NCBI GenBank assembly: GCA_040880525.1
Contig: JBBDIG010000021.1
Location: 62,001-126,000, forward strand
DNA: 64,000 nucleotides
Source: Bacteroidia bacterium
GTDB lineage: Bacteria > Bacteroidota > Bacteroidia > CAILMK01 > JBBDIG01
Direction: 5' to 3'
The number at the start of each line of letters is the position of its first letter. Positions within the stretch are counted from its first letter, which is position 1. The notes beneath the pieces are model-generated. The model saw only the letters and a program-made list of their open reading frames with translations. It was not told the origin of the DNA and did no database searches. A program made the translations under genes and the position numbers. Below, piece by piece: positions 786-8,230 of the stretch.

Positions 786-1058
786 ATGAAAAAACTGCTG
801 CCCCTACTTTTCCTGGCCCCTCCCAACATTCTAATTGCAGGGGCACCTGATTCCATTGCTACATTTATATTTCAAGAACAATTAAAAACGGAATACGGCC
901 TCATTCCATTAATGGAAGGTTTTATAGGCAAGCCTGATACAATTGCCATTCATGATTGCCAGGTTGAAATAGCAGCAAAGAATAAAGGTGGGATCAAAAT
1001 GTATTTTGTGAAAGGGGCCAGCACCTTGAAATTGTCACGAATTGGAGGCCCATTATGA
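786..1058 (+). pseudogene. Internally deleted adenylate cyclase remnant
   Basis: This 90-codon frame carries a signal-peptide-like start and then 'DSIATFIFQEQL', which matches the N-terminus of the downstream cyclases ('DSVATFVIEQDL'). It ends with 'IAAKNKGGIKMYFVKG', which matches their extreme C-terminus ('IAAKNKGKMQMYFVKR'). The roughly 550 intervening codons, meaning the sensor, seven-helix and catalytic regions, are missing. I read it as a cyclase paralogue reduced to its two ends by an in-frame deletion. It still ends in an ATGA overlap with the next gene, so it may keep a translational-coupling role, but it cannot make cAMP. Homology of both ends is seen directly by comparing neighbours; loss of function is inference. 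Confidence 0.8.
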
Positions 1059-2980
1059 AAAAACTGCTGGTCATATGGCTGTTGATAATCCCAGCCCTCC
1101 TCCAGGCGGATACAGTTTATACCTTTGTCTTTAAAGAAGGGATGCAAGCCAGGTACGACCTTAGTGACCTTGTGGACCGGATGGTTGATACTACGGGCCG
1201 TATTACCATTGAAGAGATCTTGACAAGCAGAGACCTTCAAGGGCGGTTTAAGCCTATTGACAATTTAGGAAAAGAAACATCACTTGACGCTGTTGTATGG
1301 AGCAGGGCGGTATTTCTGAACATCTCGAAAAGGCCAGTGGACTACCTCCTTTCACTGTCCAATGCTGACTCTTTGGCTGTTTTTAAAGTAAACCAGGGCA
1401 AAATCACTAAAGATGTTTTAGGTAAAAAAATACCTATTCAGCAAAAAACATTTAAAAGTCATCTTGACCATGTTAGGGTCGTTTTAAACCCTGGCGAATC
1501 GGATACCTTTTATATAAGGGCTTCAGGGGATCAGTTTTATGATATTTTGCCCGGTACTTCGGTGCAGTTGATTCAAGAGTCGAGATGGCGCCTGGTGCAG
1601 TACCTCTCCATTTTCACAAGTGGCATCCAGGTGCTGATGCTGGGCTTATGCTTGCTATTGTTTTTTATTTTCAAAGACCGTCAATACCTGCTTTTTATCT
1701 TGCCGCTGACTGGTTTCCTGATTTGGTTTTCTTACAGGACTGATATTCACATTATTTTTAATACATTTCCTGTGCTTACGAAATATCAACCTGTTTTAAC
1801 GGGCTGGTATATGCCATTAACAGTTGCCGTTTTTTTTCTAGGGTATGTAGGTATCCGCAAGAAACTGAAATGGGTGTATTATACCCTTTGGGTTTTAATC
1901 CTTGCTACAGTAGGGGTATCACTTTTAAGCCTCTTGGTGCTCCATTATTCAAATAACATGGTGAATAGCCTGGTCCTTATTTTTATGTTGGTGGGATATG
2001 GTAGTGGAACTTACCTCGCATTTAGGGGGGATAGAAAAGCCTTTGTGTGGTTATTGTTCACCGCCCCCCTATTTATTACCGGGCTTCTATACCTGATTGA
2101 TGACCTGTTTCTCTCGATCAATCTCGATGTGGTTTCCCTAATGCAGATAGGGGCATTGGCGTCAAGCCTTATCATTGGATATATGATGTACGACCGTGTA
2201 AACAAGACTATACGTGATAATATAAATATCTCCCGCACCAATGAGCGCCTGGTAAGGGAGCAGAATGTGATCCTTGAGCAAAAAGTTAGTGAAAGGACCC
2301 GTGAATTGGCCGCAGAAAAACAGAAATCAGATTCCATATTGCTAAACATATTGCCCGAAGAAGTGGCCGAAGAACTGAAGGAAACAGGCCGTTCACAGGC
2401 CAGGCTATTTGAAAAAGTCACTGTCCTCTTCACTGATTTTGTAGATTTCACCAAAGCCGGGGAACGGCTGACTGCCCAAGCATTGGTCAGTGAACTGCAC
2501 AATTGCTTCAAAGCATTTGATGAAATAATTCAAAAGCATGGACTTGAAAAGATAAAAACGGTTGGTGATGCTTACATTGCAGTAGCCGGTTTACCTGTGT
2601 CTGTAAAAGACCATGCGGAGCGGACGGCAAAAGCAGCATTGGATATCCGCGAATTCATGTCCGCACGGCACCACCAGCTCGGGGAAAAAACATTTAAGAT
2701 ACGCCTTGGCATCCACTCAGGTTCTGTGGTGGCCGGTATTGTGGGGGTGAAGAAATTTGCCTATGACATTTGGGGCGATACCGTAAACACGGCTGCCAGG
2801 ATGGAGCAGAACAGTAAGGCCGGACGGGTCAATATTTCACAGTCCACTTATGGGTTAATCAAAGATAGTTTTGAATGTACACCACGGGGAAAGGTGGCAG
2901 CAAAGAATAAGGGGATGATGGAGATGTACTTTTTAAATGCTGCAATAGACATAAAATCAGAAATCAGTTTCCCGCAATGA
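1055..2980 (+). CDS. Membrane-bound class III adenylate cyclase (array copy 1)
   Basis: Makes cAMP from ATP at the inner membrane. Order of parts: signal peptide (1-18), periplasmic sensor of about 150 residues with the jelly-roll look of 7TMR-DISMED2, a run of membrane helices (about 178-375, 7TMR-DISM_7TM type), a short coiled coil ending in the cyclase-linker phrase 'LNILPEEVAEELKETG', then the catalytic domain. Metal-binding aspartates are visible in 'TVLFTDFVDF' and 'VGDAY' (D505). 'YDIWGDTVNTAARM' (570-583) supplies the adenine-selective Asp571 and the transition-state Asn578 and Arg582. Lys in 'EKIKTVGDAY' together with Asp571 is the adenylate, not guanylate, pair. Start ATG overlaps the previous stop (ATGA). 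The ligand sensed is unknown. Confidence 0.9.
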   Translation: MKKLLVIWLLIIPALLQADTVYTFVFKEGMQARYDLSDLVDRMVDTTGRITIEEILTSRDLQGRFKPIDNLGKETSLDAVVWSRAVFLNISKRPVDYLLSLSNADSLAVFKVNQGKITKDVLGKKIPIQQKTFKSHLDHVRVVLNPGESDTFYIRASGDQFYDILPGTSVQLIQESRWRLVQYLSIFTSGIQVLMLGLCLLLFFIFKDRQYLLFILPLTGFLIWFSYRTDIHIIFNTFPVLTKYQPVLTGWYMPLTVAVFFLGYVGIRKKLKWVYYTLWVLILATVGVSLLSLLVLHYSNNMVNSLVLIFMLVGYGSGTYLAFRGDRKAFVWLLFTAPLFITGLLYLIDDLFLSINLDVVSLMQIGALASSLIIGYMMYDRVNKTIRDNINISRTNERLVREQNVILEQKVSERTRELAAEKQKSDSILLNILPEEVAEELKETGRSQARLFEKVTVLFTDFVDFTKAGERLTAQALVSELHNCFKAFDEIIQKHGLEKIKTVGDAYIAVAGLPVSVKDHAERTAKAALDIREFMSARHHQLGEKTFKIRLGIHSGSVVAGIVGVKKFAYDIWGDTVNTAARMEQNSKAGRVNISQSTYGLIKDSFECTPRGKVAAKNKGMMEMYFLNAAIDIKSEISFPQ

Positions 2981-4941
2981 AACAACTGTCGGCCATTGTT
3001 TTTTTGATGCTTTTTTTCAGCCAAGCCCAGGCTCAAGACTCGGTGGCCACATTTGTCATTGAACAGGACCTCAATTCGCGACATAGCCTGACAGACATCA
3101 CCGAGCGGCTTTATGATCCCGGAGGAAACCTAACGCTGGAGCAAATTTTGGCTGACAGTTCACTCCAATCCAGGTTCAGTAAGACAGTCGTTGTTGATTC
3201 TATGTATCAGAATGGCCGGTATAAGTTCTGGAGCCGTATCAGGATATCCAATCAGTCGGAAAAAACCTTGCAGTCTTACCTGAATTTTGGCTTCGCAGAT
3301 ACCTTGGACATTTATGAAATCAACAATGACAAAATAACGCATTGGCAAACGGGGAGGAGCCTTGATTACCATGACAAATACAACCATAACAATTCTATAT
3401 TGCTTACCCTGGCGCCCGGACAGTCTAAATTATTTTACTGCCGTCATTCAAGTGATTTATTTTATCCTTCTGGACTTATTTTGAGCGTTTATACAGAAAA
3501 TGTTCTCAGGTGGAATAAGCTGATGTACTTTTCTTTGTTCGTGGATGGCTTTCAGATAGTAATGCTAATCCTCGGCTTTATGCTTTTCTTTATTTTTAAA
3601 GACCGTCATTATCTGCTGTGTACCATACCTTTAGTCGGATTTCTGCTGTGGTTTAGCGATATAAATGGAGAGCTGCATTTATTGCTGAACTCACCTGGCC
3701 CCTTTATAAAATATTTTAATGCGATTTTCACAAGTTGGTTTATGCCGGTATGTATTGTTATTTTTTATAGCAGTTATGTTCGGTTAAAGAAGAAAATGCC
3801 CTGGGTATATTATACCTATTTGTTGCTCCCGGGGTTGATAGTGATCGCTGTTGTTGGACTAATTCAAAACAGGTGGTATCCGGATATTTCAAATTTCATT
3901 ATACTTCTGCTGACGGTAATCACTTTTTTCAGTGCTGTTTATATGTCTTTTAAAGGTGAAAAGCGGGCGCGGGTTTGGCTCCTGTTCACTTTCCCCCTGA
4001 TAATTGGAGGGGGAATTCACCTTATTCGTTTAATTACGAATCTGCAAATGGATATTAGTTCAGTCTTCCTAATGCAATCAGGGGCACTTATCTCAAGTAC
4101 CATCCTCGGATATTTAATGTACGGGCGGGTGAATGGGACAATCCGTGAAAATTTCAGGGTAGTAAAGGCTAATGAAAAACTGGTGAGGGAACAGAATGTC
4201 AACCTTGAGAAAAAGGTAGCGGAGCGAACCCTGCAACTGGAAGAACAGGCACGGCAATTGGACCTGGAAAAACAGAAATCAGATTCCATATTGCTAAACA
4301 TCCTACCCGAAGAAGTGGCCGAAGAACTTAAGGAAACAGGCCGTTCACAGGCCAGGCTATTTGAAAACGTCACGGTCCTCTTTACTGATTTTGTAGATTT
4401 TACCAAAGCCGGGGAGCGGCTGACGCCACAGGAACTGGTCAGTGAACTGCACAATTGCTTCAAAGCATTTGATGAAATAATTCAAAAGCAAGGACTTGAA
4501 AAGATAAAAACGGTGGGCGATGCCTACATTGCTGTTGCGGGGTTGCCTGTGCCGGTGAAAGGCCATGCGGCAAGAGTGGCAAAGGCAGCATTGGAAATAA
4601 GGGACTTTATGGTTGCACGCCAGAAGTTGCTGAAAGATAATACCTTCCAGGTACGCCTCGGCATCCACTCGGGGCCTGTGGTGGCCGGCATTGTGGGCGT
4701 AAAGAAATTTGCCTACGATATTTGGGGGGATACCGTGAACACTGCTGCACGGATGGAGCAGTGCAGTGAGGCCGGAGAGGTCAATATCTCAGAAACTACA
4801 TACGGATTTATCAAAGGCCAATTTGAATGCACATGCCGGGGTGTAATCGCTGCAAAGAATAAAGGTAAGATGCAGATGTATTTTGTGAAAAGGGAGAATC
4901 AGGCCAATGTCCTTAAAGCGATAACAAAGGAAGTGATATGA
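2977..4941 (+). CDS. Membrane-bound class III adenylate cyclase (array copy 2)
   Basis: Paralogue of the preceding gene with the same order: signal peptide, periplasmic DISM-like sensor, seven-helix block, longer coiled coil ('LEKKVAERTLQLEEQARQL') and C-terminal class III cyclase. Catalytic residues are intact: 'TVLFTDFVDF', 'VGDAY', and 'YDIWGDTVNTAARM' from about residue 580. It starts in an ATGA overlap with copy 1 and ends in another with copy 3. The sensor half has diverged strongly from its neighbours while the last 132 residues are identical to those of copy 3, because both lie in a 481-bp perfect DNA repeat. That pattern is what gene conversion or unequal crossing-over leaves. Different sensors feeding one identical output is the likely functional consequence, by inference. 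Confidence 0.9.
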   Translation: MKQLSAIVFLMLFFSQAQAQDSVATFVIEQDLNSRHSLTDITERLYDPGGNLTLEQILADSSLQSRFSKTVVVDSMYQNGRYKFWSRIRISNQSEKTLQSYLNFGFADTLDIYEINNDKITHWQTGRSLDYHDKYNHNNSILLTLAPGQSKLFYCRHSSDLFYPSGLILSVYTENVLRWNKLMYFSLFVDGFQIVMLILGFMLFFIFKDRHYLLCTIPLVGFLLWFSDINGELHLLLNSPGPFIKYFNAIFTSWFMPVCIVIFYSSYVRLKKKMPWVYYTYLLLPGLIVIAVVGLIQNRWYPDISNFIILLLTVITFFSAVYMSFKGEKRARVWLLFTFPLIIGGGIHLIRLITNLQMDISSVFLMQSGALISSTILGYLMYGRVNGTIRENFRVVKANEKLVREQNVNLEKKVAERTLQLEEQARQLDLEKQKSDSILLNILPEEVAEELKETGRSQARLFENVTVLFTDFVDFTKAGERLTPQELVSELHNCFKAFDEIIQKQGLEKIKTVGDAYIAVAGLPVPVKGHAARVAKAALEIRDFMVARQKLLKDNTFQVRLGIHSGPVVAGIVGVKKFAYDIWGDTVNTAARMEQCSEAGEVNISETTYGFIKGQFECTCRGVIAAKNKGKMQMYFVKRENQANVLKAITKEVI

Positions 4942-5024
4942 AAAAGATACTGTTCCCTCTTCTTTTTTCATTGGTTATAGCAAGTAGCGCTACATCTGCA
5001 GACTCTACTTTTACGCTGATCTTC
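4544..5024 (+). repeat. 481-bp perfect direct repeat, copy A
   Basis: Bases 4544-5024 are identical to 6487-6967 (offset 1943 bp) by line-by-line comparison. The repeat spans the last 132 codons of cyclase copy 2, the ATGA junction and the first about 29 codons of cyclase copy 3. It crosses a gene boundary, so it marks a whole-unit duplication or conversion tract and not selection on one protein. Confidence 0.95.
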
Positions 5025-6884
5025 AAAGATCCTCTTCCGGCCACTATAGATATTACCGAAGAGGCAGAAATCCTATTTGATAGTTCCGGGCGGGTAACGA
5101 TTGAACAACTGCTGAATGATGTTTCAATAAATAAACAGTTTGTTAAGCAGGGAAACCTGAATACTTTACCTGATGGGGTAAATTATTACTGGAGAAAATT
5201 CAAAGTTGTCAACCAGATGGCACAGCCGGTAATGTACTACGTACCTTTCAAAGGTGATTCAATTTGGGTTTATGAAATGGATTATGCGAAAACATATATC
5301 TATATAAGCGGCACTCTTGTTCACCCAAGCCAACGCCCTACTCATCATGCCCGCGTCTTGGTGCCCATTTTTTTAAGGCCTGGTGAGGTAAAAACGTATT
5401 ACATACGCGCCAAATCCCAAACCTATCCTCCTGCCAGGATCAGTGGGCTCAAATTGCAATCAGAAAAAGCTTTTCGGTACACTGAGTATTTCAGTTCCTT
5501 TCATGCCGGGGCCATACTGCTCCTTATCCTGGTGGGGCTTTTTCTCTGCTTCATTTTCAGGGACAAGGTGTATTTTGTTCTCATCTTGCCCGTGGTCGCC
5601 ATTCTTATTTGGTTTTCTGAAAATAGCGGCCTTCTGGACCAGTTGGTAGGGGCGGGGCCATTTTTTTCGATGTACTCCAACACTGCCTTTTCAGCATGGT
5701 TTCTCCCCTGTTCCTGTATCTTGTTTTTGATGGTTTATATCGATTTAAAGCAGAAAATGAAATGGGCCTATTATTTTGGCTGGATAGCTATAGGTGTCAT
5801 CATTTTTATGTTCATGAGACAGCTAGCTCTGCCTCACACATTTGGCGATGGCAACCGCGTATTGCTTCCAATAATCATTTTCCTGTTAGGCCTGGTTATT
5901 TATCGTGCTTTTAAAAAAGATAAGCAGGCACTGATCTGGGTTCTTTTTATGGCTCCATTTCTCCTCTCAGGTATTATTTTTATCGTTAATCAACAATTCT
6001 TCAAAATACCACTACCTCTTGGCACATATCAAATCCTTCAGATTTCTTCATTACTTTCTGCCCTGATCATCGGATATGCCCTGTATGACCGGGTAAATTC
6101 CACCATCAAAGAACGGGTACGTGCAGTGAAAGATAAGGAGCGGCTCGTAAAGGAGCAGAATATTGTCCTTGAGCAAAAAGTAGAGGAACGTACCCGTGAA
6201 CTGGAAGCAGAGAGACAAAAGTCTGAGGATATCCTACTGAATATCTTGCCGCAGGAAGTCGCTGAAGAACTCAAAGAAACAGGCGGCTCACAGGCAAAAC
6301 TATTCGAAAATGTCACCGTCCTTTTCACCGATTTTGTTGATTTCACCAAGGCGGGAGAACGGATGGCACCGAGGGAACTGGTGAACGAACTGCACAACTG
6401 CTTCAAAGCATTTGATGAGATCATCCAACAGCACGGCCTTGAGAAGATCAAAACTGTGGGGGATGCCTACATTGCTGTAGCGGGGCTGCCTGTGCCGGTG
6501 AAAGGCCATGCGGCAAGAGTGGCAAAGGCAGCATTGGAAATAAGGGACTTTATGGTTGCACGCCAGAAGTTGCTGAAAGATAATACCTTCCAGGTACGCC
6601 TCGGCATCCACTCGGGGCCTGTGGTGGCCGGCATTGTGGGCGTAAAGAAATTTGCCTACGATATTTGGGGGGATACCGTGAACACTGCTGCACGGATGGA
6701 GCAGTGCAGTGAGGCCGGAGAGGTCAATATCTCAGAAACTACATACGGATTTATCAAAGGCCAATTTGAATGCACATGCCGGGGTGTAATCGCTGCAAAG
6801 AATAAAGGTAAGATGCAGATGTATTTTGTGAAAAGGGAGAATCAGGCCAATGTCCTTAAAGCGATAACAAAGGAAGTGATATGA
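4938..6884 (+). CDS. Membrane-bound class III adenylate cyclase (array copy 3)
   Basis: Third intact paralogue, same architecture as its neighbours, 648 residues. The periplasmic part ('VPFKGDSIWVYEMD', 'LRPGEVKTYYIRAKS') fits the DISMED2 jelly roll, followed by hydrophobic helices from about residue 185 to 390. Linker 'LNILPQEVAEELKETGG' precedes 'TVLFTDFVDF'. The Asp/Asn/Arg set in 'YDIWGDTVNTAARM' begins at about residue 574. The catalytic C-terminus from 'PVPVKGHAARVAK' onward is identical to copy 2. The stop overlaps the ATG of a fourth, broken unit at 6881, so the coupling arrangement continues into dead DNA. Function as an adenylate cyclase is well supported; the signal is unknown. Confidence 0.9.
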   Translation: MKKILFPLLFSLVIASSATSADSTFTLIFKDPLPATIDITEEAEILFDSSGRVTIEQLLNDVSINKQFVKQGNLNTLPDGVNYYWRKFKVVNQMAQPVMYYVPFKGDSIWVYEMDYAKTYIYISGTLVHPSQRPTHHARVLVPIFLRPGEVKTYYIRAKSQTYPPARISGLKLQSEKAFRYTEYFSSFHAGAILLLILVGLFLCFIFRDKVYFVLILPVVAILIWFSENSGLLDQLVGAGPFFSMYSNTAFSAWFLPCSCILFLMVYIDLKQKMKWAYYFGWIAIGVIIFMFMRQLALPHTFGDGNRVLLPIIIFLLGLVIYRAFKKDKQALIWVLFMAPFLLSGIIFIVNQQFFKIPLPLGTYQILQISSLLSALIIGYALYDRVNSTIKERVRAVKDKERLVKEQNIVLEQKVEERTRELEAERQKSEDILLNILPQEVAEELKETGGSQAKLFENVTVLFTDFVDFTKAGERMAPRELVNELHNCFKAFDEIIQQHGLEKIKTVGDAYIAVAGLPVPVKGHAARVAKAALEIRDFMVARQKLLKDNTFQVRLGIHSGPVVAGIVGVKKFAYDIWGDTVNTAARMEQCSEAGEVNISETTYGFIKGQFECTCRGVIAAKNKGKMQMYFVKRENQANVLKAITKEVI

Positions 6885-6967
6885 AAAAGATACTGTTCCC
6901 TCTTCTTTTTTCATTGGTTATAGCAAGTAGCGCTACATCTGCAGACTCTACTTTTACGCTGATCTTC
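6487..6967 (+). repeat. 481-bp perfect direct repeat, copy B
   Basis: Second copy of the 481-bp repeat. It covers the 3' end of cyclase copy 3, the ATGA junction and the start of the broken fourth unit. Identity stops at 6968, where the fourth unit begins to collect substitutions. One mismatch (4543/6486) ends it on the left, with more scattered differences beyond. Confidence 0.95.
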
Positions 6968-7076
6968 CAAGATACTTTTCCGGCTACTATTTACATTACC
7001 GAAGAGGCAGAAATCCTATTTGATAGTTCGTTCCGGGCGGATAACGATTGAACAACTGCTGAATGATGTTTCAATG
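6881..7076 (+). pseudogene. Frameshifted N-terminal stub of a fourth adenylate cyclase
   Basis: The stub begins with the same signal peptide and 'DSTFTLIF' start as cyclase copy 3. Relative to copy 3 it contains a 4-bp tandem duplication ('gttc' near 7026-7033) that throws the frame, giving a stop at 7049-7051 after 56 codons. The original frame resumes after it as 'RITIEQLLNDVS' and then homology ends near 7076. No sensor, membrane or catalytic region follows. It is the decayed downstream end of the array. Confidence 0.9.
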
Positions 7077-7556
7077 ATCATACAGGTACTAAGGCAGCAG
7101 TTGCAGAACCAGGTTGAGGAGCTAAGGACAAATGAAAGGCAGCAGCGGCAGGAAGTTCAGCAGGAATTTTTGGATCATAAGGATGCCGCTGGCAAGGAGC
7201 GGGACCAACAACTGCCATCGCTGCAGGAAGGCCATGAAGCCAAACTGGACGAATTGGCAAAACAGGAAGAGTCCTACAGGGAAAGGTGGTCTGGTTTGCG
7301 TGAAAAGAGGATTGCGCTGAATGAAAAGCAGTTTTGGGGAGAGGAAATTAGGGAACTGAAGGATTCGATCGGTAAAATGCAAAATGAAGCAGAAAATGTT
7401 ACGCATCAAATTTCGTTTCCCGCTATCCCCAAAAACTTGACCTGGTCCGGTAGCTGCAATCCATTCCCAACCCCTACCTCCATTTTGGTGATCTTGACCT
7501 GGCCGGCATCGCCATCTTCGAAAATGAGTACCGAAAGTACATTTAAAATTAAATAA
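7020..7556 (+). CDS. Chimeric ORF: cyclase scrap fused to coiled-coil segment (probably not a real gene)
   Basis: This 178-codon frame starts inside the broken cyclase stub ('SGRITIEQLLNDVS') and then switches to unrelated sequence rich in Q, E, K and R ('LQNQVEELRTNERQQRQEV', 'ELKDSIGKMQNEAENV'). That sequence would form a long coiled coil, up to about residue 128. The last 45 residues overlap an antisense T9SS fragment and look random. I do not recognise the coiled-coil donor; SMC/SbcC-like or phage tail proteins are possible. The most economical reading is a fragment joined to the array by recombination and not a functional gene. Confidence 0.35.
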   Translation: MIVRSGRITIEQLLNDVSMIIQVLRQQLQNQVEELRTNERQQRQEVQQEFLDHKDAAGKERDQQLPSLQEGHEAKLDELAKQEESYRERWSGLREKRIALNEKQFWGEEIRELKDSIGKMQNEAENVTHQISFPAIPKNLTWSGSCNPFPTPTSILVILTWPASPSSKMSTESTFKIK

Positions 7557-7822
7557 TAAACTCCAGAAGAAAGGTTCCTTAAATCGAGAACCCGCTTCGT
7601 TGCTATATCTTCAAATTTTCCTACAATTACTATTCTTCCTCTACTATCAATTAGTAATAACTTCGTTGCCGGCTGGTCGAACGGGTAAGGTAGTTCCATA
7701 GTAACAATACCTTTTATAGGATTAGGATAAACAAGCAGATCGCGAACTTTGGTAGAATCCGGTCCTTCAAAAATTTCAAACGAATCAGTTTTAGATGAAT
7801 AGAGAAGGGTATCCGGAGGCAA
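7406..7822 (-). pseudogene. Fragment of a T9SS C-terminal sorting domain
   Basis: Antisense frame containing 'LLVYPNPIKGIVTMELPYPF', 'LLLIDSRGRIV' and 'LDLRNLSSGVYYLIL', the ordered hallmarks of a type A Por secretion sorting domain (YPNP, D..G, LssGvYyl). The normal last strand (a KxxxK/R end) is missing: after 'YYLILN' the frame runs into low-quality sequence that overlaps the coiled-coil ORF on the other strand. No credible cargo domain precedes it. I take it as the broken end of a secreted protein. Confidence 0.6.
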
Positions 7823-7828
7823 AGGTGA

Positions 7829-7954
7829 AATAATGGTTATTACCGTATCTACTTGTCAGAAGCAGAATTTACTGCATTGGAGGATGAACAGAATACCACG
7901 TCCGAAACGGAATTTGCAGATTCCGAGAATAAACAGAAATCACCACAGGCATAG
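7829..7954 (+). pseudogene. Possible acidic C-terminal remnant of an unknown protein
   Basis: After a stop at 7826-7828, 41 open codons read 'NNGYYRIYLSEAEFTALEDE' and then an acidic, polar tail to a TAG at 7952. Composition looks like a natural protein end, but there is no start codon in a suitable place and I do not recognise the family. Between 7955 and 8090 I see nothing else coding. Confidence 0.25.
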
Positions 7955-8092
7955 CTTCTTTTTCATTCAGAAAATTCAGAGATTCGGAATATCCTGATGC
8001 GGACAAATAAACAGATGTCGGGACCTGCTACTACTTGGTGGCGGTGCTATCACTGATCTCCAAAAGGCATGGCTTTTAAATTCGTAGAAGCT

Positions 8093-8126
8093 TTTGTTCC
8101 TTACTCTACTCAAAAATGTATATTTG
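8093..8126 (+). promoter_or_regulatory. Candidate Bacteroidota-type promoter for secDF
   Basis: A -33-like TTTG (8093-8096) is followed 22 bases later by TATATTTG (8119-8126), a full match to the TAnnTTTG -7 consensus known for Bacteroidota. It would start a leader of about 100 nt before the secDF ATG at 8231. Motif match only. Confidence 0.5.
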
Positions 8127-8191
8127 CCGTTCGTTTTTGAGGGCCATAGCGTGCCTATGTAACGTTTTCTATATCATTTGATTACAAATTT

Positions 8192-8216
8192 AAACGGGTT
8201 TCAAAGCCCGTTTTTT
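8192..8216 (+). terminator. Hairpin plus T-run between the candidate promoter and secDF
   Basis: ACGGG and CCCGT arms, extendable by a T-G and a T-A pair, close a small loop and are followed by six Ts. It looks like an intrinsic terminator on the plus strand, 14 bp before the secDF start. Either it ends transcription arriving from the decayed region, or it is a leader attenuator. Confidence 0.6.
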
Positions 8217-8230
8217 ATACCCAGAGGAAA

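Follow-up and report, generated by a model that had tools for sequence, protein, structure and literature searches.

The tandem cyclase array

The window, which is the whole stretch of 64,000 nucleotides analysed here (G000:C21:62001-126000), comes from a source genome of 3.8 Mb assembled in 60 contigs. At positions 786-7075, on the plus strand, it carries three intact class III adenylate cyclases with 7TMR-DISM sensors (c2, c3 and c4), with a remnant unit on the 5′ side (c1) and another on the 3′ side (c5). The intact units are c2 (1055-2980, 641 aa; DISMED2 at 1175-1531, 7TM at 1601-2197, catalytic domain at 2402-2938), c3 (2977-4941, 654 aa; DISMED2 at 3103-3456, 7TM at 3526-4116, catalytic domain at 4351-4890) and c4 (4938-6884, 648 aa; DISMED2 at 5061-5423, 7TM at 5487-6092). 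Of these, c4 is a hybrid, in which its own sensor and the first part of its own catalytic domain are followed, from 6487 onward, by the catalytic end of c3.

The two outer units are broken in different ways. In c1 (786-1058, an ORF of 90 aa), the signal peptide and the start of the ectodomain are fused in frame to the AAKNKG tail, and the middle of the gene is deleted. The c1 ORF, an in-frame deletion product, has no internal stop codon. A secreted peptide of 90 aa could still be made from it, with the ATGA coupling to c2 kept. The 3′ remnant c5 (6881-7075) is the start of a c4-like gene; a tandem duplication of 4 bp (GTTC) near 7030 shifts its frame, and beyond 7075 it no longer resembles c4. 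ATGA overlaps are found at all four junctions (1055, 2977, 4938 and 6881). The locus had been described in an earlier note as a tandem duplication with decay, with three intact units, a first one without its middle, a last one frameshifted and truncated, and ATGA overlaps throughout; all of this agrees with the present analysis, and the broken units lie at both ends of the array. The AAKNKG end that the note ascribed to every unit is shared by four of them (c1-c4), but c5 never reaches one.

The array is preceded on the same strand by the 3′ end of a TonB-receptor-like gene (1-759; 797 aa, starting outside the window, CarboxypepD_reg by Pfam). This gene ends 26 nt before c1, so that its co-transcription with the array is likely. 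Scans for promoter and terminator consensus sequences gave sites no more frequent than in shuffled sequences. Further upstream, a weak and broken ISL3-like transposase and a short GmrSD_N protein were seen at L009:4184-6159, and the region upstream of the TonB-receptor-like gene seems to have been rearranged. On the 3′ side of c5, positions 7076-8230 contain debris, namely a coiled-coil-like ORF to which no family is assigned and, on the minus strand, a fragment of Por_Secre_tail. When 7000-8230 was compared with the rest of the genome, nothing matched except the start of c4.

Architecture of the receptors and their catalytic domains

By Pfam, c2, c3 and c4 each contain 7TMR-DISMED2 (PF07696), 7TMR-DISM_7TM (PF07695) and Guanylate_cyc domains, all above the cut-offs, which places them among the 7TMR-DISM receptors on both of the domains that mark this class. 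Pfam domains were found in neither c1 nor c5. TPR was not found by Pfam in c2-c4, in contrast to the genes of the L036 array described below. The c3 sensor as modelled by AlphaFold (mean pLDDT 88.8) consists of a signal helix, a beta ectodomain and seven long membrane helices, the last of which continues as a long coiled coil that carries the signalling-helix motif given below. The ectodomain matches the DISMED2 domain of RetS (2xbz/3jyb) both in sequence and in predicted fold; for DISMED2 domains, carbohydrate binding has been predicted or reported (PMC6107284, PMC8544897). Between sensor and output lies a signalling helix (S-helix) with the ERT-centred motif (PMC1592074), which reads KVxERTREL in c2 and c4 and KVAERTLQL in c3. 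Directly after this motif, c3 has an insertion of seven residues (4222-4270). It corresponds to exactly one extra heptad, and therefore the register of the coiled coil should be kept.

For the catalytic half, the nearest solved structures are adenylate cyclases, the best being AC5 at 1.5e-56. The six residues that class III adenylate cyclases require for activity and for the choice of ATP, namely the two metal-binding Asp, the Lys and Asp that specify adenine, and the transition-state Asn and Arg, are intact in c2, c3 and c4, and the same six positions are kept in all cyclase domains compared (92/92). The idea that several inputs converge on one output is supported at the sequence level by the intactness of all adenylate-specific residues in the three proteins.

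Sensor and catalytic halves diverge differently

The sensors (aa 21-385) share only 28-37% amino acid identity between c2, c3 and c4, whereas the catalytic domains share 79-95%. The identity rises from the outside of the cell to the inside: 25-31% in the ectodomain, 30-42% in the 7TM domain, 60-65% in the signalling helix and 79-95% in the catalytic domain. The divergence of the sensors had been claimed in the earlier note, and sensor halves aligning as closely as the catalytic halves, which would have spoken against it, were not found. That the catalytic ends are alike is also correct, but the wording that they are kept alike needs qualification: the likeness reflects recombination, as synonymous sites are homogenised and c4 carries the end of c3.

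This is seen when synonymous divergence is computed per domain. At four-fold degenerate sites, where an identity of 28% is expected by chance, the sensors are 18-33% identical, which is the chance level. For the catalytic region, the corresponding values are 74% (c2-c3), 50% (c3-c4) and 38% (c2-c4) in the first part and, in the second, 100% (53/53) for c3-c4 and 54% for c2 against either of them. Similarly, the dS between c2 and c3 is saturated in the sensors but 0.42 in the first catalytic part. Since these patches belong to the same proteins under the same selection, the difference in four-fold identity from patch to patch means that the catalytic regions have been homogenised in patches.

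The footprint of recombination

The clearest tract is an exact direct repeat of 481 bp on the plus strand. Its first copy (4544-5024) comprises the catalytic end of c3 and the start of c4, and its second copy (6487-6967), at an offset of 1943 bp, comprises the catalytic end of c4 and the start of c5. Beginning within the catalytic domain, the repeat runs across the junction to the next gene (c3/c4 in the first copy, c4/c5 in the second) and includes about 85 bp of that gene. Within it, the last third of c3 and of c4 is identical in DNA, in contrast to an identity of about 85% in the catalytic sequence next to it. On the 5′ side of the tract, 16 of 108 positions differ (4436-4543), and on the 3′ side, 8 of 100 positions differ and there is an insertion of 4 bp, so that the identity of the tract relative to its flanks is far beyond chance. 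Another tract is located in c2, where 2315-2562 (plus strand) is nearly identical to 4267-4514 of c3 (74% at four-fold sites against 28% by chance), and this is apparently an older conversion tract.

To judge from its edges and silent sites, the 481-bp tract was left by gene conversion or by an unequal crossover within the catalytic domain. If c3 and c4 had undergone unequal crossover in their catalytic domains, the product would be a gene with the sensor of c4 and the end of c3, followed by a second start of c4, exactly as seen. In addition, c5 has no changes relative to c4 in its first 84 bp but 8 in the next 100 (Fisher p 0.008), which hints that the tract was renewed by a later conversion. 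How many events took place, and in which direction, is our inference. Two signs of gene conversion were found here: silent sites are homogenised within sharp tract edges, and the sensor and catalytic trees disagree (AU p 0.012 and 6e-39, see below). The breakpoint in the hybrid cyclase c4 is located with a precision of a few bases.

Relatives and recurring arrays in Bacteroidota

An orthologous array was not found, the genus and the family each being represented by this genome only, nor was a full-length relative found among 12 genomes of the order. Among 396 genomes of the class, with few candidates scored per genome, sensor relatives outside the array reach at most 124 bits, compared with 653-704 inside it. 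A plasmid search with the c3 sensor gave no match. Both the sensor tree and the catalytic tree unite c2, c3 and c4 in one clade, with full support (100/99) in that of the sensors; branch lengths inside the array are close to 1 change per site for the sensor and 0.002-0.12 for the catalytic domain. Elsewhere in Bacteroidota, DISM cyclases are mostly singletons, and among the loci fetched, the exceptions are all in one genome, G545. The catalytic domains closest to those of the array belong to Bacteroidota TPR cyclases, which themselves lie in arrays. If the catalytic domains of DISM cyclases are taken as one clade, this is rejected (AU p 6e-39); for a narrower clade, made of the window cyclases and the G545 DISM cyclase, AU p = 0.012, which is the weakest of the incongruence tests.

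Tandem cyclase arrays, mostly with TPR sensors, have 4, 9 or up to 16 genes in a row, and pairs are present in many other genomes. For example, nine consecutive TPR cyclases are found in a Taibaiella MAG (L036:205-18821), in an array that starts near a contig end and in which two catalytic subtypes are interleaved. Between its genes 3 and 4, identity is 31% in the sensor, with saturated dS, but 96% in the catalytic domain (dS 0.71). Genes 1 and 5, by contrast, are 70% identical in the sensor (dS 0.61), and it is their catalytic dS that is saturated. These opposite patterns indicate that catalytic ends have been exchanged. In the genome G138, four tandem cyclases (L145:6338-14284) include one whose sensor is 57-61% like those of its neighbours but whose catalytic domain is only 65-68% like theirs, as if this domain had been replaced.

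The genome G545 is an extreme case. Its 3.7 Mb contain 68 class III cyclase matches, most of them arranged head to tail in arrays that reach 16 genes on one contig. Several of the contigs concerned (C50, C9, C44, C71, C64, C89 and C103; L199, L200 and L217-L224) begin or end inside a cyclase, and the arrays may be longer than seen. Within one of its TPR-cyclase arrays, a DISM 7TM cyclase has a catalytic domain of the G545 type (L199:1816-3810), and this gene appears to be a sensor swap across unrelated kinds of sensor. A second DISM member of an array was noticed on C9 of the same genome. Exact repeats concentrated in catalytic domains are seen in unrelated assemblies as well, though they are shorter. 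At equal sensor identity, pairs within arrays are more alike in the catalytic half than pairs between genomes, in a comparison whose pairs are not independent and whose loci were chosen for looking tandem.

A probable recombining array and alternative explanations

These observations are probably best explained by a recombining array of receptor adenylate cyclases, through which several inputs would reach one cAMP output. In this explanation, c2, c3 and c4 are tandem paralogous receptors, probably co-translated through the ATGA overlaps. Each protein consists of a jelly-roll sensor (DISMED2) on the secreted side, a membrane domain of seven helices, a coiled coil formed by the signalling helix and a class III cyclase. 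The signal would probably pass from a ligand to the ectodomain, the 7TM domain, the signalling helix and the cyclase dimer, which would then synthesize cAMP; beyond the architecture, every step of this chain is conjectural. Homologous recombination between neighbours in the catalytic half, by unequal crossover and/or gene conversion, would keep the outputs alike and would also add or remove units. As it would rarely extend into the sensor half, each sensor could drift or adapt alone. Several receptors, probably for different and perhaps carbohydrate ligands, would in this way share one cAMP pool, and the array looks like the wiring of several signals into one messenger.

Could the same pattern arise from old, separate duplicates that never recombined, with purifying selection holding the catalytic domains and the sensors free to diverge? 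Part of the contrast would indeed come from catalytic conservation alone: pairs from different genomes at 20-40% sensor identity have a median catalytic identity of 62-64%. For this reason, the claim of recombination is built on synonymous data and not on protein identity. The 481 bp without a single difference, silent sites included, lie beside sequence of about 85% identity in the same domain, the c2-c3 dS is as low as 0.42 in the first catalytic part while the sensors are saturated, and array pairs exceed between-genome pairs in catalytic identity at equal sensor identity, even if these pairs are not independent. Judging from the silent sites, purifying selection alone does not explain the contrast, and separate duplicates without recombination are very improbable. 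An artefact of assembly, in which the hybrid c4 and the start of c5 would come from a mis-joined repeat, is likewise very improbable. The exact 481-bp repeat is longer than short reads and the assembly is in 60 contigs, so the repeat could be mis-assembled, and the assembly could conceal further identical copies of the 1943-bp unit. However, a repeat of two copies with unique sequence before, between and after them leaves one consistent path, and shorter exact repeats in catalytic domains occur in unrelated assemblies. Moreover, the 8 substitutions and the 4-bp insertion that separate c5 from c4 just past the tract mean that c5 is a real, separate copy.

Other explanations concern what the array is for, or was for. 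It may be a once useful cluster in the course of being lost; c1 and c5 would then be the first units to go, and the repeat would be no more than a slip. In favour of this, two of the five units are broken, debris including a Por-tail fragment on the opposite strand makes up the 3′ flank, and mobile-element traces and broken genes lie upstream. Against this, c2-c4 still have long intact frames and all their catalytic residues despite the age of their sensors, whose silent sites are saturated, and the damage is limited to the two ends, as expected for an array gaining and losing units; simple decay is thus rather unlikely. It was also guessed in the earlier note that the ligands are linked to the TonB receptor; on this reading, the cyclases would report on the substrate of the adjacent protein. 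The likely co-transcription is in favour of this, as is the lack of a terminator between the receptor gene and c1 in the consensus scan. However, the link is one of adjacency only: no obvious TonB receptor was found beside nine other DISM-cyclase neighbourhoods, as judged by ORF lists rather than full annotation, and one receptor does not account for three different sensors. We regard a TonB-linked nutrient sensor as doubtful.

If the recombining array is the right explanation, the locus is a clear DNA record of how bacterial receptor inputs were multiplied without multiplying outputs, by unequal exchange inside the catalytic domain. As the pattern recurs in other lineages, mostly with TPR sensors, this may be a general and apparently little-studied route in the evolution of cAMP signalling. 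A more speculative proposal, which we hold to be possible but unlikely, is that tandem cyclase arrays of Bacteroidota are a system for diversifying receptors. Recombination limited to the catalytic half would provide new receptors with a ready-made output, and near-identical catalytic domains would form mixed dimers of neighbouring receptors, joining two signals in one active enzyme.

Comparison with known systems

DISM receptors, class III cyclases and concerted evolution are each already known singly. RetS, LadS, NicD and RgsP combine a DISMED2 ectodomain and a DISM 7TM domain with an intracellular signalling module as c2-c4 do, and the outputs of these cited receptors are kinase, GGDEF or EAL domains (PMC6107284, PMC8544897). 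In c2-c4, by contrast, the output is a class III adenylate cyclase, and the genes form a tandem array. The TPR-cyclase arrays of Bacteroidota (L036, L145, L200 and L217-L223) are similar in having head-to-tail genes of about 2 kb, diverged sensors, homogenised catalytic ends and some ATGA junctions, but their sensors are mostly TPR and not DISM 7TM.

The nearest functional analogy, and an analogy only, is given by the ESAG4/GRESAG4 receptor adenylate cyclases of Trypanosoma brucei, a large family in which the extracellular domains vary and the catalytic domains are 83-87% identical (PMC6027212). What is alike is the logic of sensor versus output; unlike c2-c4, these eukaryotic proteins have a single transmembrane helix and an unrelated ectodomain, and their copies are spread along the genome. 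In Mycobacterium tuberculosis, Rv1318c, Rv1319c and Rv1320c are HAMP-linked membrane cyclases, which resemble c2-c4 as consecutively numbered class III cyclases but are not known to have a DISM sensor. They share one M. smegmatis ortholog, and Rv1319c and Rv1320c form an operon (PMC3961136).

The earlier note knew of no description of arrays of this kind next to a TonB receptor. This has to be qualified, since fusions of DISM to various outputs are already known as a class, and Bacteroidota commonly have tandem cyclase arrays, mostly of the TPR type. The open-access literature searched gave no description of Bacteroidota cyclase arrays (DISM or TPR), nor of DISM cyclases in tandem whose catalytic halves have been exchanged in a readable way, although this does not prove that none exists.

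Other cyclases and candidate cAMP receivers in the source genome

The source genome has 15 Guanylate_cyc matches, including five DISM cyclases (c2-c4 and those at L014 and L011); among the others, several have TPR, one HAMP and one a SnoaL-type domain. A second tandem pair, with TPR sensors, is located on C14 (L010:3832-7707), and its sensors are 29% and its catalytic domains 65% identical. There are also five cNMP-binding matches, four of them above the cut-off, and these proteins are candidate receivers of cAMP. At G000:C19:88473-92638 (L012), the gene of a cNMP-binding regulator adjoins a cyclase fragment and an intact TPR cyclase.
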